DNA of 62,087 nt from Bifidobacterium breve (lineage in GTDB: Bacteria; Actinomycetota; Acidimicrobiia; Acidimicrobiales; Ilumatobacteraceae): assembly GCA_945893395.1 (NCBI GenBank), contig CAMDEC010000004.1, positions 1 to 62,087 on the forward strand. The letters are read 5' to 3'. The notes beneath the pieces are model-generated. The model saw only the letters and a list, made by a program, of their open reading frames with translations. It ran no database searches and was not told the DNA's origin. The position numbers were made by a program, and so were the translations under genes. Below are positions 8,863 through 20,039 of the stretch, one piece after another. The stretch's first letter is position 1. Each line of letters starts with the position of its first letter.

Positions 8863-9246
8863 ATGCCACTCTTCAAACGAACACCCAAGGCGACACAGTC
8901 TGACCTCGAACTTCTCAAAACTGAATTGGCGGAGCTGCGTAGCGAACTAACAAAACGAACGAATGCACTCTCTTTGGTTACTGCTGCAACTAACGGGCTG
9001 GATCAAAAAATTACGATCATTGATGCTCGACTCAAAACGATGACAACCGAATTATCACATCAACTTCACGAACTTGGCACTGAAATCGAATCACTCGTCA
9101 AAACTGCCGATGAGTCTGCGTCACGTGAGGCCCTCGAGCAACTTCGTGTCAATCAAACTCGTATCGCCAACGAGCAAGCCCGATACGAGATTGCTTTTCG
9201 CCAAGACCTCGCCGAAATTATTGAGCAGATCAGAAAAGCAAAGTAA
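8863..9246 (+). CDS. Small coiled-coil protein of unknown function
   Basis: A 127-residue hydrophilic protein with no membrane segment. After a short basic start (MPLFKRTPK) nearly the whole chain shows heptad-like spacing of Leu/Ile with many Glu, Lys and Gln, so a long coiled coil is likely (about residues 14-125). No enzyme motif is visible. A CATAAT box at 8847-8852 ends ten bases before the ATG, and there is no clear Shine-Dalgarno, so the transcript may start almost at the start codon. It converges on the UPF0182 gene with an eight-base gap. A structural or partner-binding role is plausible but unproven. Confidence 0.7.
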   Translation: MPLFKRTPKATQSDLELLKTELAELRSELTKRTNALSLVTAATNGLDQKITIIDARLKTMTTELSHQLHELGTEIESLVKTADESASREALEQLRVNQTRIANEQARYEIAFRQDLAEIIEQIRKAK

Positions 9247-9254
9247 CTAAAAAA

Positions 9255-12209
9255 TTAATTGCCGACAAGGGCGATCGCGCGACTGACTAATTCGCGTGCT
9301 TCGGCAAGTCGCTTTTGGTAAAGCGCAAAGTCAGGTGGAGTGCTGCCGAGCGCGGCATCGGCCTGAGCAAACAACTCTTCAGCCCGAGCAAGCAACGCCG
9401 CAGGAGTGTCAAGATTTGCCGAACTACCGCCACTGGATGGTTGCGTCGTAGAAGTTGCACCGCCACTTGAGTCTGAAGAAGCATCTGGCACAACTTCAAC
9501 CGAGCCATCATCAACACGGTCGCCAAGGTCTTTGTCGAATCCTGGGAACAACTTTGAAATTGCAGCCGTTAAGTCATCAGCCATGACGACTCGATTGTTG
9601 TATGACGCCAAGAACTTACGAACAAAAATCTGCTTTGCGCTCGGGTCATCAGGCCGCACAAACAACGGCCGAACATAGACAAGACCTTTGCTGACGTTAA
9701 TTATCTGAAGATCACCATAAATGACTCGCGAGCCTCGCTGGTCGAGCAAAGTAATTTGCTGCGACACCACGGGATCGCTGCCGATTTCTGCCGCAACCGT
9801 GGCCGGACCCTCTGGCAGTGGTTCGGCAACTTTATAAATCGTCAACTGACCATAAGTTTTTGGGTCACTTGACACAACCATGAATGCCCGAAGTTCTTTT
9901 CGGGCATTGTCAGCCGAGAACGGAACAAAAGGTCGCAACATCGAGAACACACCCTCGCTCGACTTTGATCGTGGCTCATGAAACATCGTGTAATAAGGCT
10001 CGAAGCGCGCAACACTTGCGTCTCGCACGTCACCGGTATTTGCCGCGTTCAGGTCAGTAGTGAAGTCGCCGGCAACAACGCCAGTCAAACCCTCGGGTTC
10101 AATCGCAGGGGCTTGCGCAACGCTCCAAGCGGCATTGCGATTGAAAAACAGTGTCGCATCTTCAAATTGGTAGCGCCCGTAGGTGTTGGTTTGCACCCTG
10201 AACAAATCTTCTGGGTATCTAAAGTGATCTACCAATTCTTTTGGCGCAAGATCAACCGAAGTAAACAACTTTGGAAATACTGCCTGCCAGGTTTTAATAA
10301 TTGGATCGTTTTGATCGACCACGTAAAACTTCATCGAACCGTCATAGGCGTCGACCGCAATCTTGACGCTGTTGCGCACATAATTAAACGACGCATTTAA
10401 TCCACTGCCAAGAGTGAGTTGATCGATGTTCGCTTGTTGGGAATATGGATAATGATCCGTCACCGTGAAAGCATCAACAACCCACTGCACTTTGCCTTCT
10501 ACAACAACCGGATATGGGTCGGCATCAAGTTTCAAGAACGGCGCGACTTTGGCGATGCGATCTTTGATGTTACGAACAAACATAATTTGCGACTCATCAT
10601 CTACCAGTGCCGAACCAAACAGGTTGTATTCGCCAAAGTGCACAGCAAACGCGACGCGACGAGCGAGTGACGAAAGTTCAACACCACCCTTGGCAGAATA
10701 ATTTTGCGACTTCGTGTCTGCGCAAGCCTGCTCGACTTCGCCAGTTTTGACCAAAGCGTAAGAGTCAAGGCCTTCACCGAAATAAAGTTCAGGTTGAGTA
10801 ATTTTGAGGCTCGTATAAATCGGGCGACCGTCGACGGTGACTTTGCTCGCTGGGGCGACGATTAGCCCACAACCGTGCGTATATAGAAGGTGTCGAGACA
10901 CCCAAGTGCGGTTGGGAACACCCGCAGTGTTAAGTTCACGAGCCGCCACTAATACTTGTTGCTCACGGCCGTCAATCTCGTAGCGATCTACGTCCAGGTC
11001 GCGAATTGCATAATAAGAAGTTTGCCCTTCGTCTAAGACGAACCGATCGCGCATCTGAATCGGATCAAGTTGGCGAACATCTTGAAGTGGTTCTGAATCA
11101 CTCGCAACATCAGCCGCGGTGATTTGTTCATATTCAACTTCGACGCTTTTTACCGTGGTTAAACCCATTGCATTCTTGGTCGCAATTATGTTGCGCTGAA
11201 TGTAAGGAATCTCTTTGGTGCTGACGTTGGGTTGTACCGAAAATCGCTGCACCACTGCCGGATAAATCTGCCCTGCAACCAGTGCAACAACGACCCAAAG
11301 CATTGTCGCGAGCACTGGCAATCTCCAACTTTTTTGCCAGACGTTCCACAGAAACAACGCAGCAACTGCCAGCGAAACGAGGATCATCAAACTCGTTGCC
11401 GGCAATTGGGCGTTCACATCGGTAAATGTTGCACCTTGCACGACGCCGCGGGTTGACGTAGTTAACTCAAAACGACCGAACCAATAGTTCACTGCTCTCG
11501 AAAGTGCGATCAACGCGAACAGAACTGAAACATGCGCCTTCGCTTGTGGCGTTACGCGACGACCCTGAGTCTGTAACTGAATCGCCCCGTTTAAATAGTG
11601 TGCAATAAAAGTTACGAGAGCGATCAAAATTAACGCTGCCAAAGACCAACTAATCAAGAACTGAATAAACGGCAACTTGAACACATAGAAACTCACATCG
11701 CGATTGAACAGCGGGTCTTTAACGCCAAACAATTGCGAATTTCTGAACAACAACCAGTCTTGCCACTGTGCTGACGCCGGCAAACCGACGAGTAAGCCAA
11801 GTAACAAAGAAATTACGGCACGCACAAGCCACTGGCGCGTGGCGACAAGTTGGCGATATCCCGCGAGCGCTCGTTGCTCGAGTGAAATCGGCACATCGCT
11901 CGGCGCTAAACGGTCGGCTAACCAAAGATTTAGAAAAATAACCAATGAAAAAATAACAACGAAAACTGCGCCAAGAATAATTTTTGTTGTCAGCACACCC
12001 CAGAAAACATCGGTTCGACCGACCACGTCGTGCCACATAACATTCACATAGAAATCAGCAAGACTTCTTACAGAAATGCCGCCAATGACAAAAACTGCCA
12101 AGATTGCCGACCAAACAGCGCGACCTTTCTTGAAAAAACCGAGCCGAAAACCACCACCCGATGAATTCGGGCTACGTGGATTACGGGGCAAGTCGGAGGG
12201 GTTCCGCAC
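9255..12209 (-). CDS. UPF0182 family large membrane protein
   Basis: The 984-residue protein matches the UPF0182 family of actinobacteria and some cyanobacteria. The first 330 residues hold about seven hydrophobic segments (for example AVWSAILAVFVIGGISVRSL and LPVLATMLWVVVALVAGQIY). A large domain, probably outside the membrane, follows with conserved-looking stretches such as VEYEQITAADVASDSEPLQ, SRHLLYTHGCGLIVAP and FRYPEDLFRVQ. The C-terminus has a Ser/Thr/Gly-rich linker (about 900-930) and an Ala-rich helix. Function is unknown in the family. It is the last gene of a leftward operon behind the DivIVA-like gene (10-base gap) and the Lon-like protease, a neighbourhood known for this family in actinobacteria. 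Confidence 0.9.
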   Translation of the reverse strand: MRNPSDLPRNPRSPNSSGGGFRLGFFKKGRAVWSAILAVFVIGGISVRSLADFYVNVMWHDVVGRTDVFWGVLTTKIILGAVFVVIFSLVIFLNLWLADRLAPSDVPISLEQRALAGYRQLVATRQWLVRAVISLLLGLLVGLPASAQWQDWLLFRNSQLFGVKDPLFNRDVSFYVFKLPFIQFLISWSLAALILIALVTFIAHYLNGAIQLQTQGRRVTPQAKAHVSVLFALIALSRAVNYWFGRFELTTSTRGVVQGATFTDVNAQLPATSLMILVSLAVAALFLWNVWQKSWRLPVLATMLWVVVALVAGQIYPAVVQRFSVQPNVSTKEIPYIQRNIIATKNAMGLTTVKSVEVEYEQITAADVASDSEPLQDVRQLDPIQMRDRFVLDEGQTSYYAIRDLDVDRYEIDGREQQVLVAARELNTAGVPNRTWVSRHLLYTHGCGLIVAPASKVTVDGRPIYTSLKITQPELYFGEGLDSYALVKTGEVEQACADTKSQNYSAKGGVELSSLARRVAFAVHFGEYNLFGSALVDDESQIMFVRNIKDRIAKVAPFLKLDADPYPVVVEGKVQWVVDAFTVTDHYPYSQQANIDQLTLGSGLNASFNYVRNSVKIAVDAYDGSMKFYVVDQNDPIIKTWQAVFPKLFTSVDLAPKELVDHFRYPEDLFRVQTNTYGRYQFEDATLFFNRNAAWSVAQAPAIEPEGLTGVVAGDFTTDLNAANTGDVRDASVARFEPYYTMFHEPRSKSSEGVFSMLRPFVPFSADNARKELRAFMVVSSDPKTYGQLTIYKVAEPLPEGPATVAAEIGSDPVVSQQITLLDQRGSRVIYGDLQIINVSKGLVYVRPLFVRPDDPSAKQIFVRKFLASYNNRVVMADDLTAAISKLFPGFDKDLGDRVDDGSVEVVPDASSDSSGGATSTTQPSSGGSSANLDTPAALLARAEELFAQADAALGSTPPDFALYQKRLAEARELVSRAIALVGN

Positions 12210-12219
12210 GCTGAAAAGA

Positions 12220-14139
12220 CTATCTTGGGACTGGCACTACGAGACACTTGCAACCCGAGTGGATCACAGGGTGTTCGTGCCCAGTCGGAAACTTTTCACC
12301 GCACGAAATTTCACCCGCGAGAGAATTGTCTTCGGCATCTGAGCAAGGCGGCCCATTCGGATCAACCATCCAACAGACTTTTGCACCCTTGTCTAACACC
12401 AAATATGCGCCTCGGCTATAAGCAAGGCGCGAAATATCGCCTACTAGTTTGTCGACTTGTTGCATCTTCCACTCACGATAAACACTACGAATCAAACTCG
12501 ACATTTCACTTGCGTCGCCACCGCTATTCTCTACGCACTTTTGGATTCGCTCACGCAACGGGTAGACGATGTCATCGGCGAGTTTTTTTGACATCACCTG
12601 CATCACCGTTGTATTGCTGACTTTTTTTCGCAAGTCTGCTTTGAGACTTTTCGAAAGCGATTGCGCACCAGACATCGCCGCTTCAATCAAGTCTTTGCTA
12701 GTGGCTTCAACAAAATTTTGTAACTGATTTTCAAAACTTGGTAAAACTTTTTCGAGTGCCACTTGTGCTTTTTTTGACTGAAGATAGTTCAACATCGCAT
12801 TCTCTTCGTCCGCCAGCACACGCTTCAACTTTTTGGCAACAACCTCGTCGACGCTGACCAATGCACTATTGCGTCGATCGAACATCTCTGGATCTGGTTT
12901 AACCGGTGTAGGCACTTCGATCTTCTTCGGGGTATCGACGTTCTTGGTCGATAAAGTTTTTGTGCCCTTGACCGAACTGGCAACCGTTTCGGCACCTGCT
13001 TGACGCAGTTTTGCAAACAGATCATCCACGCTCGATTTTTTTTGACCTTGTGCCACACCTGCTGGCTTGGAGACAACCATTGTTGGCTCAACAACTGTCT
13101 CGGGTTCCGAAGCCTCAGGGTTTTCAGGGGTTTGCGTCTGTGCTTGCGGTGTCTCTGTCGACGGGTGCAGTCGTCGTGATGTTCGACCAAACATCTGCAC
13201 AATTTTTGCGCGATGACCATCATCTGGCTCTGATTCTGATGTCTGGGCTTCAGGCAACTTGGTTGGCGCAGTTTTCGATGTTGTTTCAACAACCGGTGTT
13301 TCAATAACCGGTGCGACAAGTTCTGGGGCGCTTTGTTTTGGTTCTTCAATCAAGGTTGATGTTTGTTGATCAGCATCATCTTCGAATTTCTCACGGTCAA
13401 ACGGCAAAACATTTAGCGCAACAATTTGGTGTGGTTCGATCACGCTGATTGGTCTGGGTTCGTTGCCAACTGGCACAGCCTGCTGAAACTCTTCGGCAGC
13501 GACGTCAAAGTCGGTTAAATCTCCAACCACACCGCTTGCCGCCTCGCCTGCGCGGGTGAAGGCCGACTTCAACCGATCGCGATGACGAATCAGTTCTTCG
13601 ATTTGTTGTCGGGCAAGTTCTCGTCGCACAGCGAGTTCGGCAAGGAGTTTTTCACGATACGCGCGTGCCTCATTGACCATTTCTCGGCCCTGTTGCTTTG
13701 CGAGTTCAATCTCAGACTCGCTGTCCGAAGATGCGTCGATTCGACGACGAGATGCTTCAATCTCTGCTTCTTCACGCAACCTTGCAACTTCGCTGGCCGC
13801 ATCTCGAACCATTCGCTCGGCAGTTTCTGCTGCACGGTCACGCATCTGCTGGGCTGCTTCTCGAGCGACAGACAATACTCTGGCTGTTTCTTCGCCTAAT
13901 AAAGTTGTAACTGTCGCTTCGTCTAGTACACCGGGGTCTGAAAGGCCGCGAGTCTGCATCGCGCGCATCTCACTTTCTAAAAATTTCTCTCGCTCTTGCA
14001 GCCGAGCAAGTTCTGCCGAAACCATTCGCAAGAAATCACGCACTTGACCTTGGTCGAAGCCACGCCGAGTGACATCGAATTGGGCAGATCCAACGGCTGC
14101 CGGCGAAGAAGGGTCAGGTTTAGAGAAGCTAATCGCCAT
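12220..14139 (-). CDS. DivIVA-domain coiled-coil protein with C-terminal phage-head-like Cys/His motif
   Basis: The 639-residue protein opens with a DivIVA/Wag31-type segment (FDVTRRGFDQGQVRDFL, about residues 23-39), which in relatives binds curved membrane at poles and septum. A charged coiled coil runs to about 210, then a Pro/Gln/Thr/Glu-rich linker to about 400. The last 220 residues form a helical domain ending with W..D..GPPCSDAEDN, GEKFPTGHEHPVIHSGCKC. This order (Cys, Asp/Asn, FPxGH, H, CxC) resembles the C-terminus of Mu gpF-like minor head proteins. The fusion is unusual. A role in cell pole or division organisation is inferred from the N-terminus only. Confidence 0.8.
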   Translation of the reverse strand: MAISFSKPDPSSPAAVGSAQFDVTRRGFDQGQVRDFLRMVSAELARLQEREKFLESEMRAMQTRGLSDPGVLDEATVTTLLGEETARVLSVAREAAQQMRDRAAETAERMVRDAASEVARLREEAEIEASRRRIDASSDSESEIELAKQQGREMVNEARAYREKLLAELAVRRELARQQIEELIRHRDRLKSAFTRAGEAASGVVGDLTDFDVAAEEFQQAVPVGNEPRPISVIEPHQIVALNVLPFDREKFEDDADQQTSTLIEEPKQSAPELVAPVIETPVVETTSKTAPTKLPEAQTSESEPDDGHRAKIVQMFGRTSRRLHPSTETPQAQTQTPENPEASEPETVVEPTMVVSKPAGVAQGQKKSSVDDLFAKLRQAGAETVASSVKGTKTLSTKNVDTPKKIEVPTPVKPDPEMFDRRNSALVSVDEVVAKKLKRVLADEENAMLNYLQSKKAQVALEKVLPSFENQLQNFVEATSKDLIEAAMSGAQSLSKSLKADLRKKVSNTTVMQVMSKKLADDIVYPLRERIQKCVENSGGDASEMSSLIRSVYREWKMQQVDKLVGDISRLAYSRGAYLVLDKGAKVCWMVDPNGPPCSDAEDNSLAGEISCGEKFPTGHEHPVIHSGCKCLVVPVPR

Positions 14140-14159: not shown

Positions 14160-15323
14160 TTATAGTTCGATTGCGTCATTGGCGATGACACTGCCACCTA
14201 ACTCTTCAAGCACGCGCAATGCTTCTGCGAGATTGGCCACGGGAACAATCCGCAGTTTAGAACCTGCGACGCGTCTGGCTGCGCTGAGTTCTTCGGGAGT
14301 TTGCGCGCTCGGCACGAGAAAAACTTTCGCCCCAGCCGCTTTCACCGCGACAGTTTTTTGACGCAGTGCGCCGATCGCACCGATGCTTTCATCGCCATCA
14401 ATTGTGCCTGTCGCCGCAACCTTCACACCACCCGTCAGTTCACCGGCGGTCAACTCGTCGAGTAAGGCAAGAGTGAATGGGAGACCGGCAGACGGACCAC
14501 CGATTAGGTCGGTATTGATCTCAACTTCGAACGGTAAATCAACTTTTCGAGTGTCTGCGGGCCACACACCGATGATCGTTCGATTCGGATCATCCGGACT
14601 GACCATCAACTCGATTTTCTTGGTGATGCTGTCATTTGATTTATGCGGCGTAATCGTGATTTCAACGACATCGCCCGGCGAGTAATCGGCGATGATCGGC
14701 ATCAGATCTGACAGTGACGGTATTTCGATGCCATCAAACGCGGTGATCGTGTCACCCGGATCAAATTGCAAACATGCACTCAATGGTCTTGGCGTGTCCT
14801 CACAAACGAGTCTTTCAATAATTAGTGCGCCATATTTGATCGAGACGTCATAACCAAGTCGATTTAATGCAACATACTCTGCGATCTGTTTCGCCGACGA
14901 CATCGCTTGAAACCCCAGTTGACGCTGTTCGCTCGGGCTTGAGTCTCCAAATTTTTCTTCTCGTGTCAAAACATCGACATCTGGATCGAGCACGCCCACG
15001 AGCGCATCAAGCGCTGAAAGTTTTGATCCGTATGCGGTGACAAACAAGATCGGCGAGGAAGTTTCATAACGTGTGATCTCTTTTAGCGCCGCTTTGTCGA
15101 ACGAGAATCGCGAGGCAACATCTTCGGCAGAACCCGGTGCGACTTCCCAATAACTCACTTTTATAAAAGCAGAAACTATTAGCGCTCCAGTCACGAGCCA
15201 AACAATTGTCAACATCGGCAGAGCCCACCACATGTTGCGCTGGCGTGGCGCAATAATGGTCTCCTGCTCAGCCGAGACGGTCGGCGATACGCTAGAAGGA
15301 GTTGTGGTTGTGTCGATACTCAT
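14160..15323 (-). CDS. PDZ-domain Lon-S16-like membrane protease (YlbL type)
   Basis: From the ATG at the complement of 15323 the protein has 387 residues. A Thr/Ser-rich cytosolic start precedes one membrane segment (WWALPMLTIVWLVTGALIV, about 35-55). A PDZ domain follows near 180-235 (GDTITAFDGIEI...YSPGDVVEI), then a Lon S16 proteolytic domain with catalytic Ser in GGPSAGLPF and Lys in GALRQKTVAVKAAGA. It probably cleaves membrane or envelope proteins. The frame stays open upstream to 15653, but that extension is antisense to a plausible gene and lacks family character. It heads the operon with the DivIVA-like and UPF0182 genes. Confidence 0.85.
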   Translation of the reverse strand: MSIDTTTTPSSVSPTVSAEQETIIAPRQRNMWWALPMLTIVWLVTGALIVSAFIKVSYWEVAPGSAEDVASRFSFDKAALKEITRYETSSPILFVTAYGSKLSALDALVGVLDPDVDVLTREEKFGDSSPSEQRQLGFQAMSSAKQIAEYVALNRLGYDVSIKYGALIIERLVCEDTPRPLSACLQFDPGDTITAFDGIEIPSLSDLMPIIADYSPGDVVEITITPHKSNDSITKKIELMVSPDDPNRTIIGVWPADTRKVDLPFEVEINTDLIGGPSAGLPFTLALLDELTAGELTGGVKVAATGTIDGDESIGAIGALRQKTVAVKAAGAKVFLVPSAQTPEELSAARRVAGSKLRIVPVANLAEALRVLEELGGSVIANDAIEL

Positions 15324-15615
15324 GTCACTCACCGTCTTTGATGTTACGGTCAGGTCTGTCGCAATCATCATGCTGAGCATCATTGCTTTCTGGTTTGCCA
15401 ACCGCGGGCGCACAAAGGCGCAATTCAAACCGTTGATGGTGCGAGTCGACAATCGTCGCCCCGAAATATACCAACGTTCTGCAAAAGACAAGACTCTGCG
15501 ATCGGCAGGGTTATTGGGTCTGAGCGGGCTGGCGATTGGCATCTGCGTCGCCGCCGTGATTTCGGTTTTGGCTGCGTTTTTGTTCTCGACATTGACAAGT
15601 TCACTAGGTAGCTGA
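15322..15615 (+). CDS. Small two-segment membrane protein
   Basis: Starting at the ATG at 15322 this encodes 97 residues with two hydrophobic stretches: about residues 6-26 (TVRSVAIIMLSIIAFWFAN) and about 65-95 (LLGLSGLAIGICVAAVISVL). A basic Arg/Lys-rich loop lies between them. No known family was recognised. Its ATG overlaps the start codon of the divergent Lon-like gene in the tetranucleotide CATG, so the two translation starts share two bases. The legB-like gene begins three bases after its stop. An earlier start at 15232 is possible but would lie inside the Lon-like coding region. It may be a small component of the same envelope system. Confidence 0.55.
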   Translation: MSLTVFDVTVRSVAIIMLSIIAFWFANRGRTKAQFKPLMVRVDNRRPEIYQRSAKDKTLRSAGLLGLSGLAIGICVAAVISVLAAFLFSTLTSSLGS

Positions 15616-15618
15616 ACC

Positions 15619-16611
15619 ATGAAAATTCTTGTAACGGGGGCGGACGGTTTCATCGGATCACATGTCGTCGAGACGCTGGTCAGGCACGGACATGAGGTGC
15701 GAGCCTTCGTGCTCTACAACTCGTTTAATTCTTGGGGATGGCTGGACGAAAGTGACAAAACAATTCGCGAAAGCATCGACGTCTTCGCCGGCGACATTCG
15801 CGACCCGCACGGTGTCGATAAAGCAGTCGAAGGTCAAGAGATTGTTTTGAACTTGGCTGCGCTGATTGCGATTCCGTATTCGTACCACTCGCCCGACACA
15901 TATATAGATACGAATATCAAAGGTACGTTGAATATTTTGCAGGCTGCGCGGCGACACGGCGTGGCTCGTGTTGTGCAAACTTCAACCAGCGAAGTTTATG
16001 GAACAGCCCAATACATACCAATCGATGAACAACATCCGCTGCACCCACAGTCGCCCTATGCGGCATCAAAAGTTGGGGCAGACCAACTCGCTCTCAGTTT
16101 TCACGCGTCATTTGATTTGCCTGTTGGCATTTTGCGACCGTTCAACACTTATGGTCCACGGCAATCCGCTCGCGCCGTGATCCCGACGATCATCAGCCAA
16201 CTTTTGAACAAACACGAGGTCAAACTTGGTTCGGTTTCACCAACTCGTGACTTCACTTTCGTACATGACACGGCCATGGGTTTTCTGGCTGCTGCGACCA
16301 ACGACGCAATAATCGGGCAAACGATCAACCTCGGCAGTGGTTTTGAAATATCAATCCAAGACACTGCCGAAACGATTGCCAAGATCATGAACTGCGATCT
16401 CAAGATGACCAACGATGAGCAACGAATTCGCCCCCAAAACTCAGAGGTTGAAAGACTGCATGCATCAATTGCCAAGGCCGCAGATTTGCTCGGGTGGCAA
16501 CCGCAACTAAATGGATTTGAAGGTTTCAAGACCGGCCTCGAACAAACAATCGAATGGTTTTCCAACCCGGCGAATCTGTCCCGCTACAAGGCTGATCGGT
16601 ACAACCTCTAA
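15619..16611 (+). CDS. legB: NAD-dependent sugar-nucleotide 4,6-dehydratase (LegB-like)
   Basis: A 330-residue extended short-chain dehydrogenase. The NAD-binding GADGFIGS is at residues 7-14, STSEVYG supplies the Thr/Ser site, and YAASK the catalytic Tyr-Lys pair. RPFNTYGPRQSARAVIP is the substrate-binding stretch shared by LegB/GDP-sugar dehydratases. In the legionaminate route LegB removes water from an activated N-acetylglucosamine, giving the 4-keto-6-deoxy sugar for LegC. It heads the 29-gene rightward glycan locus, three bases after the small membrane protein gene and four before legC. Generic epimerase activity is the alternative, but the exact legC-legG-legI order that follows supports LegB. 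Confidence 0.85.
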   Translation: MKILVTGADGFIGSHVVETLVRHGHEVRAFVLYNSFNSWGWLDESDKTIRESIDVFAGDIRDPHGVDKAVEGQEIVLNLAALIAIPYSYHSPDTYIDTNIKGTLNILQAARRHGVARVVQTSTSEVYGTAQYIPIDEQHPLHPQSPYAASKVGADQLALSFHASFDLPVGILRPFNTYGPRQSARAVIPTIISQLLNKHEVKLGSVSPTRDFTFVHDTAMGFLAAATNDAIIGQTINLGSGFEISIQDTAETIAKIMNCDLKMTNDEQRIRPQNSEVERLHASIAKAADLLGWQPQLNGFEGFKTGLEQTIEWFSNPANLSRYKADRYNL

Positions 16612-16615
16612 TTAG

Positions 16616-17803
16616 ATGGCGACCTCTAATTCTTCCAAGCAGGAGTTTCTTGCAGTTTTAGAATCAGTGCTTGGAAAAGCTGCGGGTTCGCCAATCGCTT
16701 TGCATGAACCGAACATCGGCGCACTAGAAAATGAAAAAGTTGCCGACTGCCTAAATTCTGGATGGGTCTCATCGATTGGCGAGTACATTACGCAATTCGA
16801 AACAGACCTCGCCAAGTTCACGAACGCAAAACATGTCGTTGCCGTGGTCAATGGCACTGCCGCGTTGCACCTGGCCCTGCACGCTGTCGGCGTGAAACCT
16901 GGAGATGAAGTAATAGTTCCGACACTGAGTTTTGTCGCGACCGCCAACTCGGTGTCGCATTGCGGTGCAATTCCCCACTTCGTGGATAGTGATAGTCGAA
17001 CACTTGGCCTCGACCCTGATGCGCTGCGCAACCATCTAAGTAGAACTACTTCGATTCGCGATGGCCAACTGCTCAACTCAAAAACTGGGCGGAGAATCAG
17101 CGCGGTTGTTCCGATGCATACATTCGGTCACCCAATGCAGATCGAAAAATTGCTCGAAGTAGCCGCAGAATTTAATTTGACTGTTGTCGAAGATGCAGCC
17201 GAATCAATTGGCAGTTTTGTCGGCAAAGTTCACACTGGAACATTCGGTAAAGTCGGAATTTTAAGTTTTAATGGCAACAAAACGATCACAACGGGCGGCG
17301 GCGGCGCGATTCTGACTAACGACTCGGTGCTTGCACAACAAATTCGACATTTGGCGACAACGGCGAAATTGGCCCATGATTATCAGTACCTTCACGATGC
17401 CGTGGCGTTTAACTATCGAATGCCAAACATCAATGCCGCTCTAGGTTGCGCCCAAATGCAAAGGCTCGACCAGTTTCTCAAAGCCAAGCGTTCATTGGCA
17501 GAAAGCTATGCGCAGGCTTGCAAAATTTCTCAGACTTTAAGTTTTGTCGGCGAACCGAGCGGAACCACCTCGAATTATTGGCTGAATACCGTGCGCCTGA
17601 ATTCTCCAGATTTGAAAACCCGGGATGCGCTATTGAGCGCATCGCGAAATGATGGCTATTTGTGCCGACCCGCCTGGAATCTGTTGCACACTTTGCCGAT
17701 GTATCAGCAAGCCCCGCGCGGCGAACTGAAAGTTGCCGAAGAACTTGTGAACTCACTGATTAATGTCCCGAGTAGTGCCCGCCACTTTTTGGGAAACTCA
17801 TAA
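16616..17803 (+). CDS. legC: LegC-family PLP aminotransferase
   Basis: A 395-residue DegT-type aminotransferase. Motifs: ALHEPNIGALENEKVADCL and SGWVSSIGEYITQFE at the N-terminus typical of the LegC group, VVNGTAALHLAL, GDEVIVPTLSFVATANS, VVEDAAESIGSF, and SFNGNKTITTGGGGAIL with the Schiff-base lysine. It would place the 4-amino group on the LegB product, using glutamate. The stop overlaps the start of the next gene by one base (TAATG). The family and the neighbour order make the pathway role strong, although no substrate can be proven from sequence. Confidence 0.88.
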   Translation: MATSNSSKQEFLAVLESVLGKAAGSPIALHEPNIGALENEKVADCLNSGWVSSIGEYITQFETDLAKFTNAKHVVAVVNGTAALHLALHAVGVKPGDEVIVPTLSFVATANSVSHCGAIPHFVDSDSRTLGLDPDALRNHLSRTTSIRDGQLLNSKTGRRISAVVPMHTFGHPMQIEKLLEVAAEFNLTVVEDAAESIGSFVGKVHTGTFGKVGILSFNGNKTITTGGGGAILTNDSVLAQQIRHLATTAKLAHDYQYLHDAVAFNYRMPNINAALGCAQMQRLDQFLKAKRSLAESYAQACKISQTLSFVGEPSGTTSNYWLNTVRLNSPDLKTRDALLSASRNDGYLCRPAWNLLHTLPMYQQAPRGELKVAEELVNSLINVPSSARHFLGNS

Positions 17804-18957
17804 TGCGTCGAAAAATCTGTGTCATTACAGGCACTCGCGCCGAATACGGATTGTTAAAACCGGTGATGACACTTTTGAAATCCGACCCTGAAGTGCAGTT
17901 TCAACTCGTCGTAACCGGTTCTCATCTTTCGCCAAAACACGGCATGACCGTTAAACAAATTGAGGCAGATGGTTTCGTCGCAGATGCGCAAGTGCAAATA
18001 GATCTATCGGACGACTCAAGTCTGGGCGTTGCAACAGCAATGGCAAATACAACGGCCAAAATGGCGCAAACTCTAAGCCGACTCTCACCAGACATCCTCG
18101 TAGTTTTAGGTGACCGTTATGAAATACTTTCGTGTGCTCAAGCGGCACTAATTCTGGGTATCCCGATTGCCCATATTCACGGTGGCGAAGTAACCACTGG
18201 AGCATTCGATGACAGCATCAGACACGCGATTACCAAAATGTCAAGCCTGCATTTTGTCGCTGCGCAAGATTATGGGCGACGCGTGGTGCAACTTGGCGAA
18301 CAACCGAGTTCTGTCTTCAATGCCGGCAGTCTCGGAGTTGATCTCGCTCTGAGTTGCGAGACCATTGGCCGACAAGAACTCAGCGATGCTTTGAAAATTC
18401 AGATCACTAGTCCAATTCTGCTTGTGACTTACCATCCAACTACGCGTGCTACTAGCGCTGCAACAAATGAAATTGATGAAGTGTTGGCGGCACTAAGCAA
18501 GTTCGATTTCTGCACAATTGTATTCACGGGTGCCAACGCCGATCCTGGCAATACAGAAATAACCTCCAAAATTGCTCGCTTTGTTTCAACCGACCCAAAC
18601 AAGCGGTCGCTACACGACTCTCTCGGACAAAAAAATTATTTTAGTTTGATGAAGTTGTGTGATGTCGTCGTTGGTAACTCTTCTAGTGGAATCATCGAGG
18701 CTCCAGCGTTTTGTGTGCCTACCGTGAATATCGGCTCACGCCAAGATGGTCGACTACGCGCCGATTCGATCATTGACGTAAAAGCCGAGCGACAACAAAT
18801 ACAAACGGCGATTGAGACCGCGCTGTCATCGACATGGCGCGAGCGATGCTCAAAAACAAAGAGTGTCTACGGCTCTGGAAACTGTGCCCAACGAATTACG
18901 GATACTCTTAAAACTGCAGAACTCACTGTTAACAAAACATTCTTTGATCTTGCATGA
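17803..18957 (+). CDS. legG: UDP/GDP-sugar 2-epimerase, hydrolysing (LegG/NeuC-like)
   Basis: The 384-residue protein is a NeuC-type hydrolysing 2-epimerase: ICVITGTRAEYGLLKPVM at the start, VVLGDRYEILSCAQAA, IAHIHGGEVTTGAFDD near the middle, a VVGNSSSGIIEAPAF nucleotide-binding loop, and NIGSRQDGR near the end. In the legionaminate route it epimerises C2 and releases the nucleotide, giving the free 2,4-diacetamido-trideoxy-mannose that LegI condenses with phosphoenolpyruvate. It overlaps legI by four bases (ATGA). Which nucleotide is released (GDP or UDP) is inferred from the PtmE-like gene downstream. Confidence 0.87.
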   Translation: MRRKICVITGTRAEYGLLKPVMTLLKSDPEVQFQLVVTGSHLSPKHGMTVKQIEADGFVADAQVQIDLSDDSSLGVATAMANTTAKMAQTLSRLSPDILVVLGDRYEILSCAQAALILGIPIAHIHGGEVTTGAFDDSIRHAITKMSSLHFVAAQDYGRRVVQLGEQPSSVFNAGSLGVDLALSCETIGRQELSDALKIQITSPILLVTYHPTTRATSAATNEIDEVLAALSKFDFCTIVFTGANADPGNTEITSKIARFVSTDPNKRSLHDSLGQKNYFSLMKLCDVVVGNSSSGIIEAPAFCVPTVNIGSRQDGRLRADSIIDVKAERQQIQTAIETALSSTWRERCSKTKSVYGSGNCAQRITDTLKTAELTVNKTFFDLA

Positions 18958-20039
18958 TCGCCATGACGACAAACCATAAAATATTCATCATCGCTGAGGC
19001 CGGTGTAAACCACAATGGCTCGATTGATCTGGCACGAAAACTCGTTGACGCAGCGGTCGATGCAGGAGCCGATGCAGTCAAATTTCAGTCGTTCATTGCT
19101 GCATCGATTGTGACTGCCACGGCCAGCAAAGCCGAATATCAAATTGCCAACACGGGTTCAAGTGAGTCGCAACTAGAAATGTTGAAGAAGCTTGAACTCT
19201 CGCACCCTCAGCAACGCGAACTTTTCACATACTGCAAAAATCAAGGTATTCAATTTCTTTCGACACCGTTCGACTTCGAGAGTTTGAAGTTTCTCACGGC
19301 AGATTTAGGTCTAGAGACGATCAAAATTGGCTCAGGCGAACTGACGAATGCGCCGTTTCTTTACGAAGTTGCACGTTCAACCAAAAAAATTATTCTTTCA
19401 ACGGGTATGAGCACAATTTCCGAGGTCAGAGACGCGCTTGGTGTTTTTGCCTTCGCCTTTACTTCGAGTGAACCTCCAACTAGAGAGTCGTGCATCGAAG
19501 CACTTGCTAGCAGTGCAGGGAACGGCGCGGTTACCTCGAGAGTTACCCTGCTGCACTGCACGACTGATTATCCAACGGAGCCAAGCGATGTGAACCTGCG
19601 CGCGATACAAACTCTGCGTGAGGCATTTGATTGCAAAATTGGCTTTTCTGACCACTCGTCAGGCACTCATCTTGCTGTTGCGGCCGTGGCGATGGGTGCT
19701 CAAGTAATTGAGAAACACCTGACAACTAGTCGTGAGTTGGCAGGCCCCGATCATCGGGCGTCACTCGAGCCAGGCGAATTCAAAAAACTCGTCGCCCAGA
19801 TTCGAGAACTTGAACTGGCATTTGGTAGCGCCGAGAAAAATCCAACAGCCACCGAGACCAAAAATAAAAAGATTGCCCGACGAAGCCTCGTTGCATCTCA
19901 AGCAATTAAAGCAGGTGAAGCTTTCACGGCAAGCAATGTCGCCATTAAAAGACCTGGGACTGGTCGCTCGCCTTTCGAATATTGGGCTCTGCTCGGCACA
20001 AAAGCCACGCGCGACATCGCTGAACACGAATTGATCTAA
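18954..20039 (+). CDS. legI: N,N'-diacetyllegionaminate synthase-like NeuB enzyme
   Basis: A 361-residue NeuB-family synthase. IFIIAEAGVNHNGSIDLA opens the barrel, then AVKFQSF, FLSTPFDFESLKFL, KIGSGELTNAPFL, ILSTGMSTISEV, HCTTDYPT, IGFSDHSSGTHLAV and IEKHLTTSRELAGPDH carry the active site. An SAF domain forms the last 60 residues (RPGTGRSPFEYW). The GPDH motif and adjoining genes fit legionaminate synthase. The start chosen is the ATG of the ATGA overlap with legG; an ATG nine bases later (18963) is an equal alternative. It has a paralogue on the other strand at 2022 that has diverged clearly. Confidence 0.87.
   Translation: MIAMTTNHKIFIIAEAGVNHNGSIDLARKLVDAAVDAGADAVKFQSFIAASIVTATASKAEYQIANTGSSESQLEMLKKLELSHPQQRELFTYCKNQGIQFLSTPFDFESLKFLTADLGLETIKIGSGELTNAPFLYEVARSTKKIILSTGMSTISEVRDALGVFAFAFTSSEPPTRESCIEALASSAGNGAVTSRVTLLHCTTDYPTEPSDVNLRAIQTLREAFDCKIGFSDHSSGTHLAVAAVAMGAQVIEKHLTTSRELAGPDHRASLEPGEFKKLVAQIRELELAFGSAEKNPTATETKNKKIARRSLVASQAIKAGEAFTASNVAIKRPGTGRSPFEYWALLGTKATRDIAEHELI

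Follow-up and report, generated by a model that had tools for sequence, protein, structure and literature searches.

DivIVA-type scaffold proteins mark cell poles and division sites and oligomerise on curved membranes, and the MuF domain is a part of the virion that docks on the phage portal. To our knowledge, the phage parts that bacteria have domesticated are mostly whole devices, such as gene transfer agents, tailocins, and injection systems. In the available part of one study, the MuF protein gp7 of phage SPP1 is described as binding the portal protein gp6, by which it is targeted to the procapsid, and as dispensable for assembly and needed for full infectivity (PMC6316719). The accessible text of another paper reports a muf gene in about 35% of tailed phages, assigns 96% of the muf genes of bacteria to prophages or their likely remnants, and describes short MuFs, MuFs with C-terminal extensions, and polymorphic toxins of temperate phages in which the toxin lies C-terminal to MuF (PMC5576092). 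MuF is likewise treated as a virion domain in the excerpt available from a third source (PMC5512222). Searches of the open-licence literature turned up no description of a protein joining DivIVA to MuF.

Such a protein is encoded in the window analysed here, by which we mean the whole stretch of 62,087 nucleotides of actinobacterial DNA. A check of its open frames places the gene on the minus strand, and its parts and its two immediate neighbours are as follows.

12220..14139, minus strand: DivIVA-MuF fusion gene, 639 aa, ATG start
13762..14097, minus strand: DivIVA domain, residues 15-126 (PF05103, 37.7 bits against a cut-off of 28; TIGR03544, 24.5 against 22)
13486..13920, minus strand: long helix (DivIVA coiled coil) of the AlphaFold model, residues 74-218 (dN/dS of residues 1-215, 0.02-0.035)
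12892..13485, minus strand: linker, residues 219-416, low pLDDT and fast-evolving (dN/dS 0.14-0.28)
13003..13029, minus strand: linker motif VDDLFAKLR, residues 371-379, from conservation in 39 full-length rows (predicted helix 371-380)
12223..12888, minus strand: MuF (SPP1 gp7-like) domain, residues 418-639, from profile matches of relatives and the predicted fold
12232..12387, minus strand: Cys/His tail of the MuF domain, residues 585-636 (C589, C599, H621, H627, C630, C632)
9255..12209, minus strand: UPF0182 gene, downstream of the fusion after a gap of 10 bases (PF03699, 2.9e-239)
14160..15653, minus strand: gene for a PDZ/Lon-type (SepM-like) protease, upstream of the fusion after a gap of 20 bases; start position unsure

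The protein resembles each of the described systems in part. Like DivIVA and Wag31 it has an N-terminal DivIVA domain followed by a long helix, but it does not stand at the sepF-ileS place, its long linker carries a MuF domain at the C-terminal end, and at 25.8 bits it falls far below the cut-off of 260 of the Wag31 equivalog NF050102. With the phage MuF superfamily (SPP1 gp7, portal-MuF, phrog_2662, TIGR01641, PF04233) it shares the predicted fold and the Trp, CxxC, and PP.HP.CRC tail, whereas the cellular domain is fused to DivIVA, lies in a cellular operon without adjoining virion genes, and, in the ten cellular relatives compared, scores below the curated cut-offs. As in the MuF polymorphic toxins that PMC5576092 describes in its available text, MuF here belongs to a multi-domain protein; unlike them, MuF is itself the C-terminal part, no toxin domain was found, and the gene does not lie in a prophage.

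The N-terminus had initially been read as DivIVA/Wag31-like, and this is borne out by PF05103 (E 2.3e-9) and TIGR03544, both of which exceed their curated cut-offs. Solved structures of DivIVA (7o39, E 0.0078) and Wag31 (6lfa, E 0.4) were matched weakly over residues 10-60 and ranked behind two coiled-coil chains. In a full-length AlphaFold model based on an alignment of 39 full-length sequences (mean pLDDT 71.5, pTM 0.42), a helical N-terminal lobe is followed by the helix 74-218, the linker, a short helix at 371-380, a bundle at 417-581, and a strand/Cys tail at 585-636. The lobe of this single-chain model, with pLDDT 60-82, contains a helix at 30-63 ahead of the long one, and pLDDT lies below 50 across most of residues 217-368. 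The beginning of the folded C-terminal domain at residue 417 agrees with the domain split near residue 420 that was first proposed. Within the otherwise variable linker, the short motif VDDLFAKLR has an invariant F375, with V371, A376, L378, and R379 kept in at least 90% of the 39 full-length rows; a pattern for it was found in 56 of 116 genes, and perhaps the motif is a second docking site.

Taken alone, the window's protein gave no significant C-terminal match in Pfam, PHROGs, or NCBIfam (none in PHROGs at E <= 0.001), so that such models would annotate it as DivIVA only and diverse relatives are needed to recognise the remainder. Such relatives came from near genomes, of which 57 of 61 matched (the window's own included, and some in the DivIVA part or a short stretch alone), from genome contigs (91 found, 80 kept), and from loci of distant relatives. 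From 116 domain matches, 51 C-terminal domains with less than 75% mutual identity, the window's included, were aligned. Scanned one by one, 33 of the 51 matched phrog_2662 (portal-MuF) at E <= 0.001, the best at 8.4e-15; this is a portal family, and its C-terminal third is the part matched. Seven PHROG families were matched by any domain at this threshold, and six of the seven are named virion families: the six besides phrog_2662, each matched by one to three domains, comprise three of head morphogenesis, two of head maturation protease, and one without a name. At E <= 1, where weak matches are no evidence by themselves, phrog_2662 was reached by 42 domains, TIGR01641 by 28 (best 2.7e-6), and PF04233 by 17 (best 3.5e-5), the window's domain matching neither of the last two. 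In the ten domains checked against curated cut-offs, PF04233 (Phage_Mu_F) was matched with at best 22.4 of the 29.6 bits required, and TIGR01641 (phageSPP1_gp7) with at best 24.2 of 39.65.

Three relatives were also scanned with the domain cut in two. The helical part alone matched phrog_2662 in one of them (L116, E 2.5e-5), and those of the other two, L115 and L127, had no PHROG match at E <= 0.05; the tails alone matched phrog_2662 in all three (L127, 1.8e-4; L115, 2.8e-4; L116, 0.011). In addition, a profile of 11 MuFs from phages and archaeal viruses matched 49 of the 51 domains at E <= 0.001 (8.5e-10 for the one from the window) and none of 102 reversed or shuffled control domains at E <= 1. 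In a profile-profile comparison (hhalign), the cellular domains and these viral MuFs aligned over 121 columns with a probability of 99% and E 2.4e-18. Six of the 11 viral MuFs were first found with the alignment of the 51 domains and five through one of those six, and the viral-profile result is therefore not independent of that alignment; the Pfam, PHROG, and TIGR scans of the domains are.

The initial annotation had likened the C-terminus to Mu gpF-like minor head proteins and suggested a profile search against Mu F-like families. Membership in the MuF superfamily stands, on the matches of the relatives to phrog_2662, and the assignment to Mu gpF itself does not. As nearest relative the Mu gpF family was rejected, its profile matching none of the 51 domains at E <= 0.001 (best 0.68); in a profile-profile comparison, ten proteins of the Mu F family, chosen with Mu F itself, aligned weakly and to the last ~70 positions of the domains alone, at 84% and E 7.8e-6. 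Judged by sequence, the nearest branch is the portal-MuF / SPP1 gp7-like one, and Mu gpF is weakly related. A tblastn search of phage records with one divergent relative returned a single match, at E 0.03, to a portal protein from Brevundimonas phage Strzyga. When 47 cellular and 11 viral domains were placed in one tree, a single branch with support of 100/99 separated cellular from viral, an arrangement that is consistent with one capture and no proof of it, given that the viruses were picked by similarity. We also considered whether a conserved Asp of the cellular domain corresponds to the Glu of the phage 'RTE' motif and dropped the idea, as the alignment sets the two one column apart.

Modelled alone, the C-terminal domain reached a mean pLDDT of 93.4 and a pTM of 0.90, and a Foldseek search of viral models (BFVD) gave 46 matches at E <= 0.001. 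Of the top 50 matches, 24 carry a name. Portal, head/capsid morphogenesis, or minor capsid proteins account for 21 of these; among the remainder, one has a zeta-toxin domain and two are labelled uncharacterized. Query-normalised TM scores of these best 50 ran from 0.30 to 0.74 and identities from 8 to 18%, with predicted models on both sides. A C-terminal structure unlike gpF-type domains would have spoken against the first reading, and the confident model points the other way. Solved structures gave no recognised MuF, with which a MuF relation is still compatible: a domain profile against PDB sequences returned 13 matches, led by a ZorA chain at E 0.03, and Foldseek against the PDB returned none at E <= 0.001. 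With VIA-align, the best PDB match (Z 9.7) was a bacterial dynamin-like protein, within the range of helical bundles in general.

The pattern of a Cys, FPTGH, a His, and CxC that first drew attention to the C-terminus is present as described, and it is conserved across the aligned domains: W590, P618, C630, and C632 occur in 51 of 51, T619 in 50, H627 in 49, C599 in 46, and H621 in 37. The phage MuFs aligned mostly have CxxC, whereas 20 of the 51 cellular domains lack the second Cys and carry a Cys before the Trp instead. Indeed, exactly one of C589 (just before the Trp) and C602 (second Cys of the CxxC) is found in 47 of the 51, both in one, and neither in three. We read these positions as alternative places for one ligand of a single putative metal site. 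Each site changed at least eight times on the tree, and well-supported branches hold four independent pairs of C589/C602 changes, too few for a test (sign test p 0.25-1). Metal binding by the tail is a plausible reading of the Cys pattern, and a disulfide is less likely in view of the cytoplasmic location. The putative site is not kept everywhere, since tail-less members exist: the tail seems to be missing in two relatives (L132 of genome G051 and L134 of genome G040), whose match ends before it, and at least 18 of the 152 matches in the class end before the Cys tail.

The fusion gene is the middle one of a minus-strand run that reads PDZ/Lon protease, DivIVA-MuF, UPF0182. The protease gene exceeds the cut-off of PF05362 and falls below that of PF13180, and it matches NF041438 at E 1.7e-34 yet below the cut-off. 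The absence of other phage genes around the fusion, claimed at the outset, holds for the eight neighbouring open reading frames tested: their PHROG matches at E <= 1e-5 were to enzymes or families of unknown function, with no portal, terminase, or other virion family among them. Divergent from the operon, at 15619-20039 on the plus strand, runs a set of sugar genes that includes a nucleotide-sugar epimerase and an aminotransferase by PHROG matches, and two that by eye resemble NeuC- and NeuB-type nonulosonic acid enzymes. Convergent with the UPF0182 gene, at 8863-9246 on the plus strand, lies a frame of 127 aa, coiled-coil-like by eye, with no family above cut-off in Pfam or NCBIfam.

This arrangement is widely shared. 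Among 118 distinct fusion genes, a UPF0182 gene follows within 2.5 kb on the same strand in 111 of 111, and a PDZ/Lon gene stands upstream in 85 of 107, the contig end being too near in the remaining seven and 11, respectively; both counts are weighted heavily by near relatives. The gap between the fusion and UPF0182 reaches about 1 kb in one relative (L123). UPF0182 is present in 82 of 119 genomes of a phylum sample, and among the best 30 UPF0182 loci of those 82 genomes, 12 have the fusion and 18 do not, so UPF0182 does not need it. Ten of the 18 fusion-less loci have PDZ/Lon as the next gene upstream (in nine it overlaps or lies no more than about 140 bases away, in one the distance is 616 bases), and the other eight have no PDZ/Lon match. 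These loci point to a fusion gene that settled between two long-standing neighbours, although loss elsewhere would look alike.

Within the class, the domain alignment matches 152 of 197 genomes (the window's own included; 45 without a match), nearly always once per matching genome. Across the phylum, 56 of 396 genomes match, again including the window's own, and 18 of these, from six family codes, do not belong to the class; DivIVA and MuF share one open reading frame in 15 of the 18, lie in two overlapping frames in one, and are cut by a contig end in two, the DivIVA part being scored by a profile built from these loci. One genome (G046, locus L135) has a MuF-less DivIVA frame of 333 aa in the same operon place. 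Within the genus, dN/dS was as low in the MuF domain (0.02-0.04) as in residues 1-215 and higher in the linker, on ten comparisons with the window in which synonymous sites were near saturation in seven and three of 30 values could not be computed; the ten come from 14 relatives, four having been left out for starts that did not fit the pattern. The MuF domain is under strong purifying selection, like the DivIVA part. Given this, its presence in 152 class genomes, and the constant UPF0182 gene downstream, the fusion is no prophage relic. The captured virion domain that the initial annotation envisaged as a new architecture is real as a DivIVA-MuF fusion; it is no one-off but a class-wide gene in a fixed operon.

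What might a portal-docking domain do on such a scaffold? The likeliest role of the C-terminal part is that of a domesticated docking domain carried by a pole or septum scaffold, and we consider it probable that a MuF domain was acquired, joined to a DivIVA protein at its C-terminus, and retained by the cell as a docking module. Its capture, perhaps a single event, would have occurred in an ancestor of the Acidimicrobiia and some related actinobacterial families. The DivIVA part would oligomerise on curved membrane at septum and poles, a polar position being plausible from that part, while the flexible linker of ~200 residues would tether the MuF domain outward. There, the MuF domain may bind another protein, for which the UPF0182 protein encoded alongside or a part of the division or growth machinery is the likeliest candidate, and the Cys/His tail would be a structural metal (probably zinc) site. 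The binding of SPP1 gp7 to its portal is our reason for proposing docking by a flexibly tethered domain, and UPF0182 is the best candidate partner for its constancy as a neighbour. More tentatively, the former portal-binding surface may direct polar growth or division by way of a cellular partner, probably UPF0182, and may do so within the sole DivIVA found in small-genome Acidimicrobiia. If true, a single head-vertex domain in the cytoskeletal scaffold of most genomes of a class would represent a different route of domestication, UPF0182, whose Pfam name marks it as an uncharacterised family, would gain a candidate partner, and the fusion would let the MuF domain be studied outside virions.

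Other explanations fit less well. Perhaps the MuF domain binds no partner and merely stabilises the DivIVA assembly or terminates it, as the loss of the Cys tail or of the whole domain in some members could be taken to indicate; we regard this as unlikely, for a cap is ill served by a long flexible linker between MuF and the coiled coil, and the MuF sequence matches the DivIVA part in its degree of conservation. Quite unlikely, too, is a DNA tether, in which the MuF domain, by binding chromosomal DNA, would link the nucleoid to the DivIVA scaffold. The idea draws on SPP1 gp7, reportedly named a DNA-binding protein in the title of a 2003 paper by Stiege et al., and is made less likely by the negative net charge (K+R-D-E) of 46 of the 51 domains, against a charge of zero in two and of +1 in three, including the window's. 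A tie of ParA to the DivIVA protein Wag31 in mycobacteria, with which it interacts according to the available part of one study (PMC10714820), also speaks for such a tether.

Very doubtful is an anti-phage decoy, a membrane-anchored MuF that would compete for the portal of invading phages and spoil their assembly: the domain is indeed homologous to the portal-docking part, but a gene that is nearly always single and in a fixed place, with dN/dS of 0.02-0.04, bears no sign of an arms race, and the tree held no close phage relative among the 11 viral domains compared. Least credible is a C-terminal domain that arose in cells or resembles MuF by chance, as a helical bundle whose Cys/His tail is convergent, a reading to which the unmatched window domain, the unreached Pfam and NCBIfam cut-offs in ten relatives, and the single phrog_2662 match among three helical parts would lend themselves, but against which stand the silent reversed and shuffled controls, the predominance of virion proteins among both the matched families and the named BFVD models, and the abundance of muf genes in phages and prophages in the available text of PMC5576092, which makes phage-to-cell the simpler direction.

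For a docking module on a DivIVA scaffold, it is relevant whether the cell holds another DivIVA. Among 82 genomes of the window's family, a DivIVA match was single in 46, lacking in one, and multiple in 35, where 'more than one' match may stand for one or more genes. By coordinates, the single match is the fusion gene in at least 15 of the 46, and in three of those 15 (G005, G025, G029) the gene lies in two pieces on different contigs; in another genome (G650) the single match sits in a frame of 330 aa and is probably not the fusion. Both sepF and ileS are visible in six loci of the family (G000, G017, G026, G029, G036, G310), and in none of them was a DivIVA gene found in between. This includes the window's genome, where the fusion sits between PDZ/Lon and UPF0182. 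A branch of small genomes thus seems to live with the fusion as the only DivIVA found, as read from draft genomes, the window's own 82% complete, in which a very divergent DivIVA would be missed. A canonical divIVA does stand between sepF and ileS in one genome (G173) and is present also in other genomes of the window's family; in a genome of another family (G387), sepF lies elsewhere, on the other strand.

Two minor observations concern individual relatives. Genome G051 has, at the end of a contig (L133), a second MuF match beside another UPF0182 gene. In several relatives, L073, L071, and L112 among them, the stop-to-stop frame that holds the fusion spans 830-1543 aa, which perhaps reflects open frame 5' of the true start rather than extra domains.
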